Notes under the pieces: generated by a model | Databases searched by the model: none | The model's input: only the letters and a program-made list of their open reading frames with translations | What the model was told of the DNA's origin: nothing | Shown: in pieces, positions 43,247-51,561 of the stretch | Position numbering within the stretch: position 1 is the first letter of the stretch | Layout: every line of letters begins with the position of its first letter | Program-made: the position numbers and the translations under genes | Origin: Robiginitalea marina | Lineage (GTDB): Bacteria > Bacteroidota > Bacteroidia > Flavobacteriales > Flavobacteriaceae | Direction: 5' to 3' | Length of the DNA: 64,000 nt | Assembly: GCF_024006985.1 (NCBI RefSeq) | Contig: NZ_JAMXIB010000004.1 | Location: 62,001 to 126,000, forward strand

Positions 43247-43275
43247 TAAAATCGGGGAAGTTGTATTTTTACCCT

Positions 43276-44430
43276 ATGGAAGGATTCCCACGAAGATTGG
43301 AAGCCAGACTTGAAAAGCGCCTCCGCGAAGGGGCGTTCCGGCAGCTGTATCCCCCGAATGACCGGGTGGATTTTTCGTCCAACGATTACCTGGGGTACGC
43401 CCACAGCCCAAGGCAACCCGAAAGCAGCCTCCCGCCGGGGAGCACCGGATCGCGACTGATCAGCGGCAACCATGGCCTTTACTCGCAGGCCGAAAAGGTC
43501 ATTGCGGAGTTCCACCGGGCAGATTCTGCCCTTATCTACAATTCCGGGTACGATGCCAACGTGGGCCTGCTGTCTTGCCTGCTGCAGCGCAATGACTGCA
43601 TTTTCTATGATCAGAGCGTGCATGCCAGCATCCGCGATGGTATTGCCCTGGGAAAGGGCAGGGCATTCAAATTCAGCCACAACAGCCTCTCTTCCCTGAA
43701 GAAAAAGGTGGGTGCTGTCTTGCCAATGGGCAGAAAGAACGGCATCGAGGTTTATGTCATTACCGAGTCCGTTTTTTCCATGGAAGGGGACGGGCCCGAT
43801 CTGGCGGCTTTCAGTAGCTACTGCCGGGAAATGGGCTTTCACCTGATTGTGGATGAGGCCCATGCGGCAGGCATCCTTGGCCCGGGGGGTCGGGGGGAAG
43901 TAGTGGCCCAGGGGTGTGAGGATGCGGTTTTTGCCCGGGTGATAACCTTTGGAAAGGCCCTGGGATGCCACGGGGCAGCCGTGTTGGGGAGCCATCGGCT
44001 CAGGGAGTATCAGATCAACTTCAGCCGCAGCCTGATCTATACCACGGCATTGCCCCCCGGGAGCCTGCAGGCCCTGTTGAGGTCCTATCAATGGCTGGAG
44101 AGCCCGGCCGGGAAGGAGGCCCGTGAACAACTACGCCAGGTATGCACCGTATTCCGCGATACAGTTGCGGCACTGGGGCTGGGCCCCTTTTTCCGAATGG
44201 CCCGGGGACCAATCCATTGCTGTGAGGCTGGCGGCAACATGCGGGTAAAGGCCCTGGCCCTGATCCTGCAGGAGGCTGGCTTTGAGGTTAAACCGATTCT
44301 ATCCCCCACTGTGGATGCCGGCCGGGAATGTCTCCGCTTCAGCCTGCATGCCTTCAATACCGCTACCCAGGTGAGGGAAGTTTTGACTATCTTGGGCCAC
44401 GCCCTGAAAAAGGAATCCCATGGGGAATAA
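43276..44430 (+). CDS. bioF: 8-amino-7-oxononanoate synthase
   Basis: 384 aa pyridoxal-phosphate enzyme that joins pimeloyl-ACP (or -CoA) and alanine in biotin synthesis. Seen: VDFSSNDYLGYAH, TGSRLISGNHGLYSQAE, LIVDEAHAAGILGPGG and the PLP lysine in VITFGKALGCHGAAVL. The ATG at 43276 is preferred; a TATTTTTA box (43262-43269) is just upstream. Its end overlaps the DUF2007 gene by 11 bases. Closely related 2-amino-3-ketobutyrate ligase is less likely because bioD, bioA and bioB are next to it. Confidence 0.92.
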   Translation: MEGFPRRLEARLEKRLREGAFRQLYPPNDRVDFSSNDYLGYAHSPRQPESSLPPGSTGSRLISGNHGLYSQAEKVIAEFHRADSALIYNSGYDANVGLLSCLLQRNDCIFYDQSVHASIRDGIALGKGRAFKFSHNSLSSLKKKVGAVLPMGRKNGIEVYVITESVFSMEGDGPDLAAFSSYCREMGFHLIVDEAHAAGILGPGGRGEVVAQGCEDAVFARVITFGKALGCHGAAVLGSHRLREYQINFSRSLIYTTALPPGSLQALLRSYQWLESPAGKEAREQLRQVCTVFRDTVAALGLGPFFRMARGPIHCCEAGGNMRVKALALILQEAGFEVKPILSPTVDAGRECLRFSLHAFNTATQVREVLTILGHALKKESHGE

Positions 44431-44806
44431 AACCACCTACCATATGTTGGATGCCTTTGATTATGTGACCGATGCCGAGTTGCTCAAGGCAAAGCTCGAA
44501 TCGGAAGGCATCCCGGTATTCCTTAAGGATGCCAATATTTTACAGGCAGACCCCTTTATCGCGTCTGCCATAGGTGGGGTTAAGGTGATGGTCTTCCAGG
44601 AGGACCGGGAGAAGGCAGAAGAAATCTATAACGCAATTCGCGCCTATGCCCGCCGCGGCGATGGAAGCCCCGTGGTATGCCCGAACTGCAAGGCGGCCAG
44701 GAGTATCCGCTATTCGGACCGCAGGAATTTCTGGAACCGGCTTTTTCCTTTCCTGGAACCCATGAAATACAGGTGTTTGAATTGCAATATGATCACCAGA
44801 GGATAA
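44420..44806 (+). CDS. DUF2007 protein with C-terminal zinc ribbon, inside the biotin operon
   Basis: 128 aa. N-terminal DUF2007 region (DYVTDAELLKAKLESEGIPV, then AIGGVKVMVFQEDREKAEEI) and a C-terminal zinc ribbon (CPNCKAARS ... KYRCLNC). DUF2007 is small, of unknown function and structurally related to signal-transduction proteins. The start overlaps bioF by 11 bases and bioD begins 4 bases after the stop, so all three are probably coupled in translation. A role in biotin metabolism is only suggested by position. Confidence 0.82.
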   Translation: MGNKTTYHMLDAFDYVTDAELLKAKLESEGIPVFLKDANILQADPFIASAIGGVKVMVFQEDREKAEEIYNAIRAYARRGDGSPVVCPNCKAARSIRYSDRRNFWNRLFPFLEPMKYRCLNCNMITRG

Positions 44807-44810
44807 ACGG

Positions 44811-45437
44811 ATGGAACGCATCTTTGTCACAGGGATCTCCACGGAGGTAGGAAAAACCATGGCCTCGGCTATTTTGGTGGAGGCCCTGCAGGCCGACTAC
44901 TGGAAACCGGTGCAGGCCGGGGACCTGGAATATTCCGACAGCGACAAGGTTAGGGCCCTGATCAGTAACCCCCATTCCGTGATCCACCCCAATGCCTATG
45001 CCCTGAAAACCCCGATGAGCCCCCATGCGGCCGCGCAGCGCGAGGACATCCGACTGGAGCTTGACCGGATTGTGGCCCCCATTACCGACAACACCCTGGT
45101 CATTGAAGGGGCCGGGGGACTTCTGGTCCCCCTGAACGATACCGATACCATCCTGGATCTGATCCGCCCCGGATACCACGTGGTGGTGGTTTCCCGGCAT
45201 TACCTGGGGAGCATCAACCATACCCTGATGACCGTACAGTGTTTACGCCAAAAGGGCTTCGAACCTTTCCTGCTGTTTAGCGGCGACCGGCACCCGTCCA
45301 CGGAATCCATCATCGAATCGAAAACCGGGGCCCGTATCCTGGGCCGTATCGGGGAACAGGAAGCCTTTACAAGGGAAGTGGTCCTTGAGTTGGCAAAACA
45401 ACTTCGGCCTGTCCTGGCGGGCTACCACCTTTTGTAG
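44811..45437 (+). CDS. bioD: Dethiobiotin synthase
   Basis: 208 aa ATP-dependent enzyme that closes the ureido ring of dethiobiotin. P-loop FVTGISTEVGKTMASA, the substrate Lys in YWKPVQAGD and the VIEGAGGLLVPLN loop are all present. It lies 4 bases downstream of the DUF2007 gene. Its last 16 bases overlap the convergent glycosyltransferase gene, which interrupts the biotin cluster. Confidence 0.95.
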   Translation: MERIFVTGISTEVGKTMASAILVEALQADYWKPVQAGDLEYSDSDKVRALISNPHSVIHPNAYALKTPMSPHAAAQREDIRLELDRIVAPITDNTLVIEGAGGLLVPLNDTDTILDLIRPGYHVVVVSRHYLGSINHTLMTVQCLRQKGFEPFLLFSGDRHPSTESIIESKTGARILGRIGEQEAFTREVVLELAKQLRPVLAGYHLL

Positions 45438-46897
45438 ACGATGGCCTTACCGATTAGGGTATCCTTCCGGTAATGCGCGTTCAGGTAATTTTCCAGATAT
45501 GCGTTTTCCCGGGTGAACCTTTTGTCAAAAGCCGGTTTCCCATCCCTTTTTACGACCAAAACCGGCCGAAGGGTCCCCAGGAGGTATCCCAGTTCCCCGA
45601 GGGATGTACTCCGTCCCTCGTGCAGAAAGGGAAACAGTGCCGGGCGGCAGATGTTGCTCGGGTGCGTGGCGGCTTTGGATGGGGGGTCCTGGCCCAGGAA
45701 CCAGTATCCGATGTGGTATTCCAGGAAGAGGACCTGCGTGGTATCGCCATAGCGGGAACGGATATGCTGCGGCACGGCAATTCCCTCCCCGTTGTAGAGT
45801 TTGCCTGTTCGCTGGAAGTGCCGGGAAAGGTGTCCGTATTCGAGATAGCTTTCTATCGGCAGCAGCAGGATCAGGATCGGGAGGCCTGCGACCCACCCTC
45901 TGATGGCGGAGGGCCACTTCACTTCCAGTACCCCAAAGAAAACCACTAGGAATAGGGGATAAAATTGCAACAGGTAATGGCCGTTTAATTTTCCCCCTGC
46001 CCAGAAGGCCGCCACAATGCCCAAAAGGGTGGCCAGCACAAGGTCAAAACCGGGTCGGAACCGGCCCCGGCCCTTCCAACCGGCCCATAGGACCAACAGG
46101 CTGCCGGCATAGAACGGGAGGTATTTCCAGGGGAATCCGCTCCGGCTTCCGGAATAGGCCAGGGGGGCTTCCACCATGGCTTCCCACCAGAGCATGCCCT
46201 TCCCCCCGATCCAGTAGGGCAAAAAAGAACCGAAGGCCACAAGCCCCCCTCCGAGGAGGAGGCACCCCAGGGAAAGCAGGGGTATCCGGGGTTTTCGGGC
46301 AAGCAAGGCACCCAGGAGGTAGCCCCCAAGTACTGCCACGGCTACCAGCAGGTTGGTTTTGCAAAGCACGGCCAGTCCAAAGCCTGCGCCAGCCGTCAGA
46401 CTGGCCAATGGCCCCCTGTGCCGGAGCAGGAGAAGGAGGGATGGGAGCAGGAACAGCAGGCTGAGGTGTTCAGACATAACCCCCTGTACGCTGTTGAAGA
46501 GGCTCATCAGGAAGGCGGTGATCCATCCGGCCAGAAAACCCACCTTCCTGCCCCCGACCCGTTCCCCGATCAGATAGGTCGCTATGGCGATGCCGGCGAC
46601 GGCGACCGCACCCAGCAGGCGGATGGCTAACAGGCTTTTTCCAAAAATACTGATGGGGACGGCAAAAAGGAAGAAGAGGAAAGGGGGCTTGAGGTCCCAC
46701 AACTCTGTGTATGGAAGGTTCCCGTCCACAAGGGATTGGGCTACCAGGATGAAAGTGCTTTCATCCCTGTCGATATAATCCCTGAAAAAAAACGGGAAAC
46801 GGATCAGCAGGGTAAACAGGGCGATGGCGCCGAAATGAACCCGGGCTTTCCCATTGGCGGCCCAGTCATTCATTCGGGTAACCCACCGGTTTCGCAT
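45422..46897 (-). CDS. Glycosyltransferase family 39-type membrane protein
   Basis: 491 aa with about ten transmembrane helices. The first periplasmic loop has RDYIDRDESTFILVAQ and LWDLKPPFLFFLFA, the acidic and Pro-rich signature of the PMT/ArnT-like GT39/GT83 enzymes that use polyprenyl-phosphate sugars. The acceptor (lipid A, protein or glycan) cannot be told. It lies opposite to, and between, the two parts of the biotin cluster; its 5' end is 66 bases from the bioA start, so the two are divergent. Confidence 0.85.
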   Translation of the reverse strand: MRNRWVTRMNDWAANGKARVHFGAIALFTLLIRFPFFFRDYIDRDESTFILVAQSLVDGNLPYTELWDLKPPFLFFLFAVPISIFGKSLLAIRLLGAVAVAGIAIATYLIGERVGGRKVGFLAGWITAFLMSLFNSVQGVMSEHLSLLFLLPSLLLLLRHRGPLASLTAGAGFGLAVLCKTNLLVAVAVLGGYLLGALLARKPRIPLLSLGCLLLGGGLVAFGSFLPYWIGGKGMLWWEAMVEAPLAYSGSRSGFPWKYLPFYAGSLLVLWAGWKGRGRFRPGFDLVLATLLGIVAAFWAGGKLNGHYLLQFYPLFLVVFFGVLEVKWPSAIRGWVAGLPILILLLPIESYLEYGHLSRHFQRTGKLYNGEGIAVPQHIRSRYGDTTQVLFLEYHIGYWFLGQDPPSKAATHPSNICRPALFPFLHEGRSTSLGELGYLLGTLRPVLVVKRDGKPAFDKRFTRENAYLENYLNAHYRKDTLIGKAIVYKRW

Positions 46898-46963
46898 AGG
46901 GGCAATGGAGTTAATTTCTCATCTTTGCAAGGTATAAAAACCTTCACGGATAAAGAACCGATT

Positions 46964-48238
46964 TTGAAAAGCCTTTCACAACGGGACAGAAATTACATTT
47001 GGCACCCCCTTACCCAACACAAGACCCACCCTGAAGTGATCGGGATCAGGAAGGCGGAAGGGGTTTACCTCTACGATGAAGAGGGCAAAGGATATATCGA
47101 TGGGATTTCTTCCTGGTACACGGCGGTTTATGGTCATTGCAACCCGTTTATCACCGGGCGCGTCGCCCGGCAAATGGAACAGCTCGACCAGGTGGTCTTC
47201 AGTGGGTTTACCCATGAACCGGCGGTATCCCTTTCGGAGAAACTAATCCCATTGCTTCCCGGGAACCAGGCCCGCTTGTTCTTCTCCGACAACGGCTCCA
47301 CCGCCGTGGAGGTGGCCATCAAGATGGCCCTGCAATACCATTTCAACCGGGGCGAGCGACGCAAGGTTTTGCTGGCGTTTGAGGAAGGGTTCCACGGAGA
47401 TACCTTCGGGGCCATGTCGGTCTCCGGGCTCTCGGTCTACAACGGCCCCTTTGCCGATTTCAGCCTGGAGGTGAGGCGTATCCCGGTACCGGACCAGGAG
47501 GAACCCACTGCCCTGCTCACCCGGCTTGAGGAACTCCTCGAAACGGAATCGGTGGCTGCCTTTGTGTATGAGCCCCTGGTACAGGGGGCAGCAGCCATGA
47601 AAATGCATAACGCCCGCGGGCTGGACCGCGTCCTTGGTTGCCTCCGGGAGAAGGGGGTGTTGCTGGTCGCCGATGAGGTAATGACCGGGTTTGGCAAGAC
47701 GGGCACCCACTTTGCCTCCGGACAACTCAAAACGCAGCCCGATATCCTTTGCCTCTCCAAGGCCCTTACGGCAGGGCTCCTTCCCATGGCCGTTACCAGT
47801 TGTACCGCAGCGGTTTTTGATGCCTTTTATGGGGATGACCTTTCCCTTGGGTTTTTCCACGGGCACACCTATACGGCTAACCCCCTGGCCTGTACCGCAG
47901 CGCTTGCAGGGCTGGAATTACTGGTATCGGAGCCCATCCAGGAGGGGATCAGGCGTATAATGCACTCCCACGGGGAGTTCCTGCGACGGGTGGACGGACA
48001 CCCGGCCGTCAGGGCCTCCCGACAATGTGGGGTGATCCTGGCCCTGGACCTCGATGCCCCGGGCCCCCGTTACGGGGCTTTCAGGGACCGGGCCATGCGG
48101 TTTTTCATGGAACGCGGGGTCTATCTCAGGCCCCTGGGGAATACCGTCTATGTATTGCCGCCCTATGTGATCCGCCGGGAAGAGCTCCAAAAAATCTACG
48201 GGGCCATAGAGGCCCTGCTCGAACAACTCAAGGCATAA
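46964..48238 (+). CDS. bioA: Adenosylmethionine-8-amino-7-oxononanoate aminotransferase
   Basis: 424 aa PLP enzyme using S-adenosylmethionine as amino donor to make 7,8-diaminononanoate. Seen: YIWHPLTQHKTHPE near the start, ISSWYTAVYGHCNP, VADEVMTGFGKTGTHFASG and the PLP lysine in CLSKALTAGLLPMAVT. The start is a TTG at 46964 (MKSLSQRDRNYIWHP), which matches where family members begin; no ATG is suitably placed. A CATCTTTG box (46919-46926) 38 bases upstream may be the promoter. The ketosynthase gene follows after 6 bases. Confidence 0.94.
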   Translation: MKSLSQRDRNYIWHPLTQHKTHPEVIGIRKAEGVYLYDEEGKGYIDGISSWYTAVYGHCNPFITGRVARQMEQLDQVVFSGFTHEPAVSLSEKLIPLLPGNQARLFFSDNGSTAVEVAIKMALQYHFNRGERRKVLLAFEEGFHGDTFGAMSVSGLSVYNGPFADFSLEVRRIPVPDQEEPTALLTRLEELLETESVAAFVYEPLVQGAAAMKMHNARGLDRVLGCLREKGVLLVADEVMTGFGKTGTHFASGQLKTQPDILCLSKALTAGLLPMAVTSCTAAVFDAFYGDDLSLGFFHGHTYTANPLACTAALAGLELLVSEPIQEGIRRIMHSHGEFLRRVDGHPAVRASRQCGVILALDLDAPGPRYGAFRDRAMRFFMERGVYLRPLGNTVYVLPPYVIRREELQKIYGAIEALLEQLKA

Positions 48239-48244
48239 CCTGAA

Positions 48245-49438
48245 ATGGCTTTCGAACCGGTATCCCTGGTATCCATTGCATCCCTGTCGGCCCTTGGACT
48301 GGGGCCGGAAGAGGTATGGGCGGGATATTCCAGGGCGGCTTCCCATGCCCTCAGTACCATGAATGATGGGGCCGGTGGGCTGGCCTATGGGGGGAGGATC
48401 CCGGAAACCACCCGCACCCGGGTCAGGGAAATTCGGGAATCCTATTCTGCCTACGCCCATCTCGACCCCACCGTGATCTATGCCATCGCGACCAGCCGCA
48501 TGGCGGTAAAGCAGGCCGGGTGGGACCGGGCTTCGCGGTTTGGGGTCAACCTCGGGTCTTCCAGGGGTGCCACGGAAATTTTTGAGCGCTACCATGGGGA
48601 ATTCCTGGAGACCGGGAAGGTGGGCAGCCATGCCTCCCCGAGCACAACCCTGGGCAATATCGCCTCCTGGGTGGCACAGGACCTGGGTGCCCGTGGCCCG
48701 GAGATCTCCCACTCCATTACCTGCTCCACCGCCCTGCATGCAGTTTTGAACGGGGTAGCCTGGATAAGGGCCGGTCTGGAAGACCGGTTTCTGGTAGGTG
48801 GGAGCGAGGCCCCCCTGACCCCCTTTACCCTGGCCCAAATGCGGGCCCTTAAAATCTACAGTCGGGAAACGGGGGATTACCCCTCCCGGGCCCTCGATCT
48901 GGATAAAACGAATAACAGTATGGTATTGGGCGAAGGCTCTGGGGCGGCCTGCCTGGAAAATGGGCTGAAGCCCGGGGCCCTGGCCCTGATTTCGGGCCTT
49001 GGCTACGCTACCGAAGACCTGACCAGCGCGGTATCCCTGAGCCGGGAAGCTTCGTGCCTGCAGCGCGCCATGAACATGGCCCTTGCCGGGTGCGACCCGG
49101 GGCAGGTTGACGCCGTGGTCATGCATGCCCCCGGAACCCTCAGGGGGGACCGGGCAGAATACAGGGCCCTCCAACGGGTTTTTGGGCAGCAGCTTCCGGC
49201 CCTGACGACCAACAAATGGAAACTCGGGCATACCCTGGGGGCCTCGGGCCTGCTCAGCCTGGAGTTGGCCGTACAGATGCTGCAACACCAAAGCTTTGTT
49301 GCGGTTCCGTTTGTGCAGGGTATCCGGCCCCCGGGCCGGCTAAGGAAAATACTTGTCAATGCGGTGGGGTTCGGGGGCAATGCAGTGAGCCTCCTTGTGG
49401 AGCGGCCTCCCGGAGCCGAGGGGGAACCGTTCCCCTGA
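48245..49438 (+). CDS. Beta-ketoacyl synthase between bioA and bioB
   Basis: 397 aa thiolase-fold KAS I/II-like protein. The catalytic Cys is in HSITCSTALH, one His in VVMHAPGTLRGD and the second in KLGHTLGASG, so the Cys-His-His triad is intact. It follows bioA by 6 bases and precedes bioB by 97. The window has no bioC, bioH or other pimeloyl-chain gene, so this enzyme is a candidate for building the pimeloyl chain; KAS-like BioZ does this in some alphaproteobacteria (known). The actual reaction here is an inference. It could instead be a general fatty-acid enzyme, but the position argues otherwise. Confidence 0.85.
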   Translation: MAFEPVSLVSIASLSALGLGPEEVWAGYSRAASHALSTMNDGAGGLAYGGRIPETTRTRVREIRESYSAYAHLDPTVIYAIATSRMAVKQAGWDRASRFGVNLGSSRGATEIFERYHGEFLETGKVGSHASPSTTLGNIASWVAQDLGARGPEISHSITCSTALHAVLNGVAWIRAGLEDRFLVGGSEAPLTPFTLAQMRALKIYSRETGDYPSRALDLDKTNNSMVLGEGSGAACLENGLKPGALALISGLGYATEDLTSAVSLSREASCLQRAMNMALAGCDPGQVDAVVMHAPGTLRGDRAEYRALQRVFGQQLPALTTNKWKLGHTLGASGLLSLELAVQMLQHQSFVAVPFVQGIRPPGRLRKILVNAVGFGGNAVSLLVERPPGAEGEPFP

Positions 49439-49535: not shown

Positions 49536-50624
49536 ATGAACGATATCAGGCATACGTGGACCCGGGAGGAAATCATGGAGGTGTATAAAAAGCCCATCAT
49601 GGAGTTGCTGTATGAAGCAGCCTCGGTCCACCGGGCCTACCACGACCCCAATACAGTACAGGTTTCCACCCTTATTTCCATCAAAACCGGGGGGTGCCCG
49701 GAAGATTGCGGGTACTGCCCCCAGGCGGCCCGTTACCATACCGATATTGAGGGCAACGAACTGATGACGGTCTCGCAGGTAAAGGCACAGGCCCTGCGCG
49801 CCCGCGCCGCCGGGAGCTCAAGGGTTTGCATGGGGGCGGCCTGGCGGAATGTGAAGGATGGCCCCGAGTTCGACCAGGTGCTGGAAATGGTCCGGACCAT
49901 CAACAAACTCGACATGGAAGTGTGCTGTACCCTGGGCATGCTTACCGAGAACCAGGCACTTCGCCTGGCGGAGGCCGGGCTCTATGCCTACAACCATAAC
50001 CTGGACACTTCTGAAGACTATTATAAAGATGTGATTTCCACCCGGGCTTATGAGGACCGCCTGGAAACCATAGGAAATGTCCGCAAGACCAATGTCACGG
50101 TATGCAGCGGGGGGATCATCGGGATGGGGGAACGCCTCGAAGACCGCGCCGGGATGCTGGTTGCCCTGAGTTCCCTGGACCCACAGCCGGAATCGGTACC
50201 CATAAACGCCCTGGTAGCCGTGCCGGGAACCCCCCTGGAAGACCAGCAACCTGTTTCCATATGGGAAATGGTGCGGATGGTGGCCACCACGCGGATAACC
50301 ATGCCCCGGACCCAGGTGCGGCTCTCCGCCGGGCGTACGGGGATGAGCCGGGAGGGCCAGGCCCTTTGTTTTTTTGCCGGGGCCAATTCCATCTTTGCGG
50401 GCGATAAGTTGCTCACCACGCCGAACCCCGATGTGAATGAGGATATGGAGATGTTCCGGCAGCTCGGCCTGAAACCCCAGGAGCCCTTTGCCAAGGGGCC
50501 CAGGCCTGTTTCGGTGGAAGCGACGGAAGCCGTGCACCATGCCCTCGGCGAAAAGCCCCGCTGGACCAGGCCCGGGCATACCATCGAAAGGAACGAACAG
50601 GCGCGCACCGGCCGTCGGGAATAA
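49536..50624 (+). CDS. bioB: Biotin synthase
   Basis: 362 aa radical SAM enzyme that inserts sulfur into dethiobiotin. The 4Fe-4S motif CPEDCGYC and the 2Fe-2S cluster ligands expected in the family (Cys in RVCMGAAW and EVCCTLGML, Arg in QVRLSAGR) are present, as is ETIGNVRKTNVTVCSGGIIG. The C-terminal 30 residues are basic and variable. It has its own promoter 65 bases upstream, so it can be expressed apart from bioA and the ketosynthase. Confidence 0.97.
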   Translation: MNDIRHTWTREEIMEVYKKPIMELLYEAASVHRAYHDPNTVQVSTLISIKTGGCPEDCGYCPQAARYHTDIEGNELMTVSQVKAQALRARAAGSSRVCMGAAWRNVKDGPEFDQVLEMVRTINKLDMEVCCTLGMLTENQALRLAEAGLYAYNHNLDTSEDYYKDVISTRAYEDRLETIGNVRKTNVTVCSGGIIGMGERLEDRAGMLVALSSLDPQPESVPINALVAVPGTPLEDQQPVSIWEMVRMVATTRITMPRTQVRLSAGRTGMSREGQALCFFAGANSIFAGDKLLTTPNPDVNEDMEMFRQLGLKPQEPFAKGPRPVSVEATEAVHHALGEKPRWTRPGHTIERNEQARTGRRE

Positions 50625-50700
50625 ATGCCTGCAGGGAGCAGACAGGATATCGGGGTGTTGGGGACGTTTCTTAATTTTATCGGCTAAATTCCACCCAAAA

Positions 50701-51561
50701 GTGAAGCTCGAAGAAGTAACCAGGATAACAACTATTTCCAGGGAAGCCTTTCTGAATGATTTTTTCAGGCCGCAGCGGCCTGTGGTTATCGAAAAGGCGA
50801 TAACCTCGTGGCCCGCCTATTCCAAATGGAACCTGGATTATATGCGGCAGGTGGCCGGCGATAAAATAGTACCCCTATACGATGACCGGCCGGTAGACCA
50901 CCGGGAAGGGTTTAACGAGCCCCATGCCAAAATGCGCATGGACGATTACATCGACCTTTTGAAACGGGAGCCGACGCGATACCGCATATTCCTCTGGAAC
51001 ATCCTGAAAGAGGTGCCCCGCCTGCAGGACGATTTTGAATTCCCCGATTTTGGCCTGAAACTGATGAAAGGCCTCCCCATGCTGTTTTTCGGCGGGCGGG
51101 ATTCGTATACCTTTATGCATTACGATATCGACCTGGCCAATATTTTCCATTTCCACTTCGATGGGGTGAAGGAGTGCATCCTGTTTCCGCAATCGGAGAA
51201 CAACGTACTCTATAAAGTTCCTCATTCCCTGATTACCCACGAAGGCATCGACTTTTCAGACCCGGACCTCAATAAATGGCCTGCCCTCAGGAATGCCCGG
51301 GGGTTCAGGACTCGACTGGGCCATGGGGAGGTCCTCTATATGCCTGAAGGGTACTGGCATTATATGCGGTATGTGACCCCGGGGTTTTCCATGAGCCTGC
51401 GGGCTATTGCCCGAAATCCGGCGAATCTGGGAAAGGCGGTTTACAACCTGCTGGTGATGCGGAACTATGACAACCTGATGCGGCGGCTGCGCGGGCAGCA
51501 GTGGATCGACTGGAAAAATCAGCAGGCCATTGCCAGGACCCATAAAATGCTTTCTCCATAG
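50701..51561 (+). CDS. Cupin-like / JmjC-type 2-oxoglutarate oxygenase
   Basis: 286 aa. N-terminal region with FRPQRPVVIEKAITSWPAYS is typical of the cupin_8/JmjC family. Iron ligands are visible: His-x-Asp in MHYDIDLANIFHFHFDG and a late His in GYWHYMRYVTPGFSMSLRA. The family hydroxylates proteins, including ribosomal proteins, or small molecules; the target is unknown. The start is GTG at 50701, as the conserved N-terminus begins there. A TAATTTTA box (50672-50679) is 21 bases upstream. Confidence 0.88.
   Translation: MKLEEVTRITTISREAFLNDFFRPQRPVVIEKAITSWPAYSKWNLDYMRQVAGDKIVPLYDDRPVDHREGFNEPHAKMRMDDYIDLLKREPTRYRIFLWNILKEVPRLQDDFEFPDFGLKLMKGLPMLFFGGRDSYTFMHYDIDLANIFHFHFDGVKECILFPQSENNVLYKVPHSLITHEGIDFSDPDLNKWPALRNARGFRTRLGHGEVLYMPEGYWHYMRYVTPGFSMSLRAIARNPANLGKAVYNLLVMRNYDNLMRRLRGQQWIDWKNQQAIARTHKMLSP

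Follow-up and report, generated by a model that had tools for sequence, protein, structure and literature searches.

Several sources of the pimeloyl chain used in biotin synthesis have been described. The closest to the one considered here is BioZ, a KAS III-like protein which, according to PMC7645780, occurs mainly in alphaproteobacteria and has also been reported in Rhodothermus and Marinithermus. BioE and BioL, a ferritin-like diiron oxygenase and a MocR repressor, are described as a pair in the Weeksellaceae and other groups, and Chlamydia as having BioE without BioL (PMC12915131). For the Balneolaceae, bioC was reported with no recognised bioH, and the available portion of that report mentions no ketosynthase in a bio cluster there (PMC9909488). 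A survey of gut genomes found 74 species "from diverse phyla" that have bioF, bioA, bioD, and bioB with the pimeloyl source missing, and proposed uncharacterized enzymes to supply it (PMC6593275). Among the matches listed from the open-licence literature there was no KAS I/II-type pimeloyl enzyme and no bioA-ketosynthase-bioB cluster; PNAS 2025 e2509301122 (Hang et al., cited in PMC12915131 with the BioZ references) might describe it.

Here we analyse a ketosynthase gene, called KS below, from a biotin cluster of Robiginitalea marina. We propose that KS is very probably the pimeloyl-forming enzyme, condensing a dicarboxylic primer with malonyl-ACP, in its own genome and in most genomes of the family that carry the upstream biotin genes.

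RESULTS

Gene order at the locus

The window, that is, the whole stretch of 64,000 nucleotides that was analysed, contains the following biotin-cluster genes:

43261..44430, + strand: bioF-like AON synthase (best NCBIfam match TIGR00858, 268.6 bits, below the equivalog cut-off of 426)
44811..45437, + strand: bioD, dethiobiotin synthase (114.1 bits, cut-off 83.3)
46736..48238, + strand: bioA open reading frame with a mechanical start (TIGR00508, 519.9 bits, cut-off 405)
48245..49438, + strand: KS, the bio-cluster ketosynthase of KAS I/II class, 397 aa with an ATG start (open reading frame, Pfam domains, and triad)
49536..50624, + strand: bioB, biotin synthase (TIGR00433, 399.2 bits, cut-off 225)

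Open reading frames and profile matches place bioF, a gene for a DUF2007 protein, bioD, and bioA 5' of KS on the same strand. The bioA stop codon ends at 48238 and the KS ATG begins at 48245, leaving a gap of 6 nt, and 97 nt separate the end of KS from the start of bioB at 49536; the first-pass annotation, which had placed KS 6 bases after bioA and before bioB, was correct in the reading frame, in the 6-nt gap, and in the position ahead of bioB. The true start of bioA is further downstream, at ~46.9 kb, because the TIGR00508 match opens at residue 88.

Three other genes lie in the cluster. The DUF2007 gene (44420-44806, + strand), between bioF and bioD, has relatives in 53 of 92 clustered regions. 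Between bioD and bioA is an oppositely oriented gene that resembles PMT_2-type membrane glycosyltransferases (45422-46897, − strand), and 12 other regions have relatives at this position. A Cupin_8 (JmjC-like) gene (50488-51561, + strand) follows bioB and has a relative in 69 of the 92 clustered regions. Relatives of the Cupin_8 gene are also present in bioB-containing genomes with no bioA over the cut-off, such as G061, G093, G115, and G135, so the gene appears to be a conserved companion of bioB, and for the same reason it was rejected as the missing pimeloyl gene.

Class and fold of KS

KS matched the Pfam models ketoacyl-synt (74.0 bits) and Ketoacyl-synt_C (67.6 bits), both over the cut-off of 20.8, and scored 18.6 bits against the KAS III model ACP_syn_III, under its cut-off of 24. 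The catalytic residues C160, H294, and H329 form an intact Cys-His-His triad, accompanied by K324, and the gating Phe (F376) is in place. The top matches in a sequence search of the PDB were FabF proteins (best E 1.8e-26). An AlphaFold model made from a 33-sequence alignment had a mean pLDDT of 87.4 and a pTM of 0.91, and aligned with PDB FabF structures (8cne) with a TM score of ~0.84 at 25% identity. By its N and C domains, triad, and fold, KS is a member of the KAS I/II (FabF/FabB-like) class, in agreement with the first-pass description of a KAS I/II-like protein with an intact triad. The best NCBIfam match was the FabF equivalog TIGR03150, at 132.1 bits and far under the cut-off of 493.75, which places KS outside that equivalog.

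In three genomes (G072, G080, and G113) the single open frame of KS matches the window protein in two parts that divide near residues 206-212, which suggests a loop insertion in these KS proteins.

KS clade and acyl pocket

For the tree, 29 of the 89 bio-cluster KSs were chosen and combined with 23 rows of other ketosynthases. The latter represent 22 distinct proteins, since par_L115 and para_L274 are the same gene, and include E. coli FabF and FabB and paralogues from the window's genome and related genomes. The window's genome has five PF00109 matches, two of which (L004 and L005) were left out of the tree; from a sequence motif we take these two to be thiolase-like. The bio KSs fell together on one side of a long-stemmed branch (SH-aLRT 100), with FabF and FabB on the other. 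Two distant bio KSs are on long branches, so their exact position in the tree is unsure. A separate FabF-like gene of the window's genome (C44:4850) grouped with FabF.

Pocket residues were identified by alignment to E. coli FabF, with the literature numbering (Met removed). The position of the FabF gate residue Ile108 is occupied by Arg107 in 89 of 89 bio KSs (83 from the family and 6 distant), which were found without the GSSRGAT pattern, and by Arg in 0 of the 22 distinct other KSs, which have Ile, Val, or, in FabB, a gap. FabF F202 is replaced by Met in 83 of the 89. The substitutions L111 to T110, I138 to T135, and G201 to Q198 are present in all 89 (89/89 each), M141 to N138 in 87, and A162 to T159 in 85; from the alignment and the FabF structure, the replaced residues other than I108 and F202 presumably line the pocket. 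In the KS model, pocket residues 131-136 have a pLDDT <50. R107 was also found in 79 of 80 named loci (the best 80 of 554; in one it was not found), a count that is partly circular because the search patterns included the GSSRGAT motif and that we do not use as evidence.

I108 and F202 are reported to gate the FabF acyl pocket (PMC7138838). An Arg in place of the Ile108 gate suggests that the primer carries a free carboxylate, and the alignment suggests that the cationic, polar KS pocket as a whole would suit a short primer of this kind. In BioZ, S84, R147, and S287 were proposed to contact the free carboxylate at the pocket end; the S84A and S287A proteins failed to complement, and R147A was partly active (PMC8024396). 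The Arg in the KS pocket is therefore suggestive, not proof.

These results bear on the first-pass label of "KAS II-type". The fold and triad uphold it, and it needs qualifying in that KS falls far below the FabF cut-off, belongs to its own clade, and has an altered acyl pocket.

Distribution of KS in the family

The window's family was sampled with 149 genomes, one per genus, which were searched for KS, bioA, bioB, BioC, and BioE. KS orthologues were found in 83 genomes, the weakest best match having an E of 5.3e-68 and the strongest match outside the group 5.8e-27. Genes over the cut-off were present in 91 of the 149 for bioB and in 85 for bioA. All 83 genomes with KS have both bioA and bioB, and KS was found in 0 of the 64 genomes with no bioA over the cut-off. 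Only two genomes, G003 and G142, have bioA and no KS. Every one of the 85 genomes with bioA over the cut-off has one, and only one, of the three pimeloyl solutions that were looked for: KS in 83, bioC plus bioG in one, and a BioE-like gene in one. Fisher's p for the set comparison is 2e-40, a value that serves as a scale only, because the genera share ancestry. As the genera are not independent, the comparison on the BioB tree (84 rows with both traits, G003 and G079 being outside the count) came to only 5 independent pairs; 2 of these are on strongly supported branches, both in the expected direction, and the sign test for independent co-loss, which was short of power, gave a p of 0.5.

Eight genomes have bioB and no KS. 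Five of them (G061, G089, G093, G115, and G135; loci L042 and L044-L047) have no bioA over the cut-off, and the others are G079, with a partial bioA, G003, and G142. The absence of KS from those five indicates that KS follows bioA, not bioB. Perhaps they salvage dethiobiotin, as in the "A1" variant of PMC6593275. Among the eight genomes, G089 is 82% complete; G079, whose partial bioA lies at the edge of a contig and scores under the cut-off, is 81% complete and was counted as lacking bioA and left out of the tree trait counts.

An ordinary FabF in a chance position was rejected as an identity for KS, given the separate clade and the exact tracking of bioA.

Conservation of the neighborhood

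The KS regions of the window and 82 other genomes, up to ~19 kb each, were compared. In 73 of the 83, the nearest tracked genes on the same strand were bioA on the upstream side and bioB on the downstream side; 4 had bioA alone, 3 had bioB alone, and 3 had neither. In total, bioA was nearest upstream in 77 and bioB nearest downstream in 76. The linkage of KS to the bio genes is far above chance, and the bioA-ketosynthase-bioB arrangement, which the first-pass annotation had proposed to survey across the phylum, proved to be conserved.

The spacing varies. In 35 of the 77 regions bioA is within 130 nt of KS and in the rest the gap is 273 to 6,989 nt, and bioB is as far as 10 kb from KS in some regions. 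The three genomes with no same-strand bio gene by KS (G016, G023, and G030) have bioA elsewhere in the genome. In 28 regions KS is immediately preceded by a small gene of family c15 that is oriented in the opposite direction.

Occurrence in the phylum

Among 395 genomes of the phylum, KS was found in 33 at an E of 2.8e-52 or better, and nine more had matches only at 3.6e-34 to 9.3e-33. Six of the 33 KSs are from four other families, and all six adjoin bioA or bioF. Two of the nine weaker matches were inspected and had no bio gene nearby. BioC at E ≤ 1e-40 was present in 117 of the 395 genomes (80 of them over the cut-off), with an overlap of 0 with the 33 KS-containing genomes. We also examined named loci, using the best 80 of 554, which include Flavobacterium, Aquimarina, Maribacter, Flagellimonas, Eudoraea, and one Robiginitalea. 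Of these best 80, 76 had bioA upstream; within the flanks retrieved, 41 had bioB downstream and none had bioC, bioG, or bioE.

The two genomes with bioA and no KS

The two exceptional genomes have these features:

G003, L041:8309-13791: cluster bioB-bioA-bioF-bioG-bioC-bioD (BioG PF04301, 146.8 bits; BioC TIGR02072, 204 bits, cut-off 185)
G142, L048:11848-12483 (− strand) and L048:12661-14166 (+ strand): BioE-BioL-type module beside bioF/D/B/A

The bio genes of G003 are only 31-33% identical to the family's own bio genes; the cluster may have been acquired from elsewhere, or its contig may be foreign to this assembly, which is 80% complete.

The G142 cluster contains bioF, bioD, bioB, and bioA, together with a 211-aa BioE-like protein and a divergent MocR-type regulator with GntR and aminotransferase domains. 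Searches of Pfam, NCBIfam, and the PDB gave no match for the 211-aa protein at the thresholds applied. Its residues E26, E53, H56, E125, E155, and H158 have exactly the spacing of the six iron ligands of CpBioE (E41, E68, H71, E140, E170, and H173; PMC12915131). From this ligand spacing and the MocR neighbor we read the pair as a probable BioE-BioL module. With the G142 protein as query, BioE at E ≤ 1e-5 was found in 1 of the 149 family genomes, G142 itself, and BioE was accordingly rejected as the pimeloyl source of the KS-containing genomes, none of the 83 in the family having it.

Search for other pimeloyl genes in the window's genome

The genome assembly that contains the window (G000) is 3.25 Mb in 49 contigs and 99.99% complete. 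It had no BioC (TIGR02072) at E ≤ 1e-15 among 15 scored candidates, no BioE at E ≤ 1e-5 when queried with the BioE-like protein of G142, and no BioW (PF03744) at E ≤ 0.001, a search in which the Bacillus subtilis control was detected. The BioW route and a hidden BioC were rejected on these results, the former because the window's genome has no BioW and the latter because there was no match at the thresholds used. The first-pass annotation had noted that the window contains no known pimeloyl-synthesis gene, and for BioC, BioE, and BioW this holds genome-wide. The same genome has one P450, a 466-aa open frame on contig C2, with the bio cluster on contig C44, and five KAS III-type matches, two on C11 and one each on C4, C22, and C49, the window's C44 having none. 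BioH was searched for in this genome only, and three generic alpha/beta-hydrolases matched, with at most 50.7 bits vs the cut-off of 207. The P450, KAS III-type, and hydrolase matches, which belong to generic families that may yet have a role, are all outside the window.

In the family, BioC over the cut-off was found in 1 of the 149 genomes, G003, which has no KS. Methyltransferases matched the BioC model at E ≤ 1e-15 in 70 genomes; the best such match outside G003 was 1.2e-24, with 88 bits vs the cut-off of 185. These weak matches leave room for a very divergent BioC. The first-pass annotation had asked whether bioC and bioH are missing from the genomes that have the ketosynthase: for bioC over the cut-off the answer is that it occurs in 0 of 83, and for BioH it extends to the window's genome alone and to three weak matches.

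DISCUSSION

Proposed role of KS

The best reading of these results is that KS is a BioZ-like enzyme of the KAS I/II class that would form pimeloyl-ACP without methylation by BioC. The first-pass suggestion of an unrecognised pimeloyl route of KAS II type in Bacteroidetes is supported by the co-occurrence of KS with bioA and by the replacement of KS in G003 and G142. The involvement of KS in pimeloyl formation, its binding of a carboxylate, and the identity of its primer we infer from sequence comparisons.

As we envisage the reaction, a short dicarboxylic acyl primer would be loaded on Cys160, with its free omega-carboxylate held by Arg107 and the polar residues near it, which stand in place of the hydrophobic pocket of FabF. 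The primer would then be condensed with malonyl-ACP by the Cys-His-His mechanism, and the ordinary FAS II reductases and dehydratase would finish the chain to give pimeloyl-ACP for use by BioF. The methyl-ester disguise, put on by BioC and taken off by BioH or BioG, would be unnecessary. By analogy with BioZ, a glutaryl thioester primer, needing one condensation, seems somewhat likelier than a malonyl thioester, needing two.

Alternatives

A variant of the same proposal, whose probability overlaps with that of the whole, holds that only malonyl groups are used: Arg107 would prevent decarboxylation of a malonyl thioester primer, which would be extended twice. A cationic, polar pocket would suit any short omega-carboxylate, and no candidate for glutarate activation stood out among the recurrent cluster neighbors, of whose families a minority were identified. 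Ketosynthases normally decarboxylate malonyl groups, however, and the known precedent, BioZ, is reported to take glutaryl-CoA (PMC7645780); we consider the malonyl-only variant a possibility to be kept in mind rather than the one to be expected. Another explanation would have KS condense for a methyl-ester route of the BioC type, with a highly diverged methyltransferase and esterase elsewhere in the genome. The alpha/beta-hydrolases of the window's genome are weakly BioH-like, and generic methyltransferases weakly match the BioC model in 70 of the 149 family genomes at E ≤ 1e-15, but 0 of the 15 methyltransferase candidates of the genome itself reach that level and BioC at E ≤ 1e-40 is present in 0 of the 33 KS-containing phylum genomes. 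In addition, organisms with BioC, such as E. coli, use ordinary FabF/FabB, and a methyl ester would be expected to favor a hydrophobic pocket, not an invariant Arg. We judge this explanation improbable.

It is very unlikely that KS is an elongation enzyme of housekeeping or secondary metabolism merely riding in the bio operon. Its fold and triad are ordinary, and in 3 of 83 regions it is away from same-strand bio genes; such a passenger would not be expected to track bioA exactly (83/83 with bioA, 0/64 without), even where the cluster is broken up, and the genome has a separate FabF-like gene (C44:4850). We give just as little weight to the idea that the pimeloyl chain comes from a BioI-like P450, or from long acyl chains cleaved in some other way, with KS having a different role in the biotin pathway. 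The one P450 of the genome could be cited in its favor, but that 466-aa open frame is on C2 and the bio cluster on C44, BioW was not found, and the absence of KS exactly where bioC plus bioG or a BioE-like gene occurs would be left unexplained.

Significance

The pimeloyl-forming role proposed for KS offers a specific candidate gene for a named pimeloyl gap in a large bacterial family, and the Arg in the acyl gate a possible structural reason why a free carboxylate could be accommodated by an enzyme resembling FabF. If the proposal is true, there is an additional route to pimeloyl-ACP, KS is a simple marker of biotin synthesis in the family, and many genes otherwise called generic beta-ketoacyl synthases would presumably gain a function. 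More tentatively, and with considerable doubt, one may speak of a fifth pimeloyl route, in which a KAS I/II enzyme that evolved separately from BioZ would have an invariant Arg gate that admits a free dicarboxylic primer (possibly malonyl), would need neither methyl-ester masking nor lysine catabolism, and would serve a large part of the Flavobacteriaceae as well as several further families in the phylum.

Comparison with known systems

KS resembles BioZ in being a condensing enzyme in the bio cluster of genomes without BioC. Unlike BioZ, which has the KAS III fold and a Cys-His-Asn triad, it has the KAS I/II fold and Cys-His-His, and assignment to BioZ was rejected because the KAS class is wrong, with ACP_syn_III under the cut-off and His at both positions. 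BioZ is further defined by condensing glutaryl-CoA with malonyl-ACP and by complementing E. coli bioC/bioH mutants. With FabF and FabB it shares the fold, the triad, and the gating Phe F376; it differs from them in its separate clade, in Arg for Ile108 and Met for F202, and in the other polar replacements. The BioE-BioL pair, like KS, fills the pimeloyl slot of a bio cluster, as in G142, whereas BioE is an unrelated protein reported to cleave long acyl chains (PMC12915131). The BioC-BioH/BioG pathway, like the route proposed for KS, gives pimeloyl-ACP through FAS II elongation; it does so by methylating and then demethylating, steps that the KS route would dispense with.
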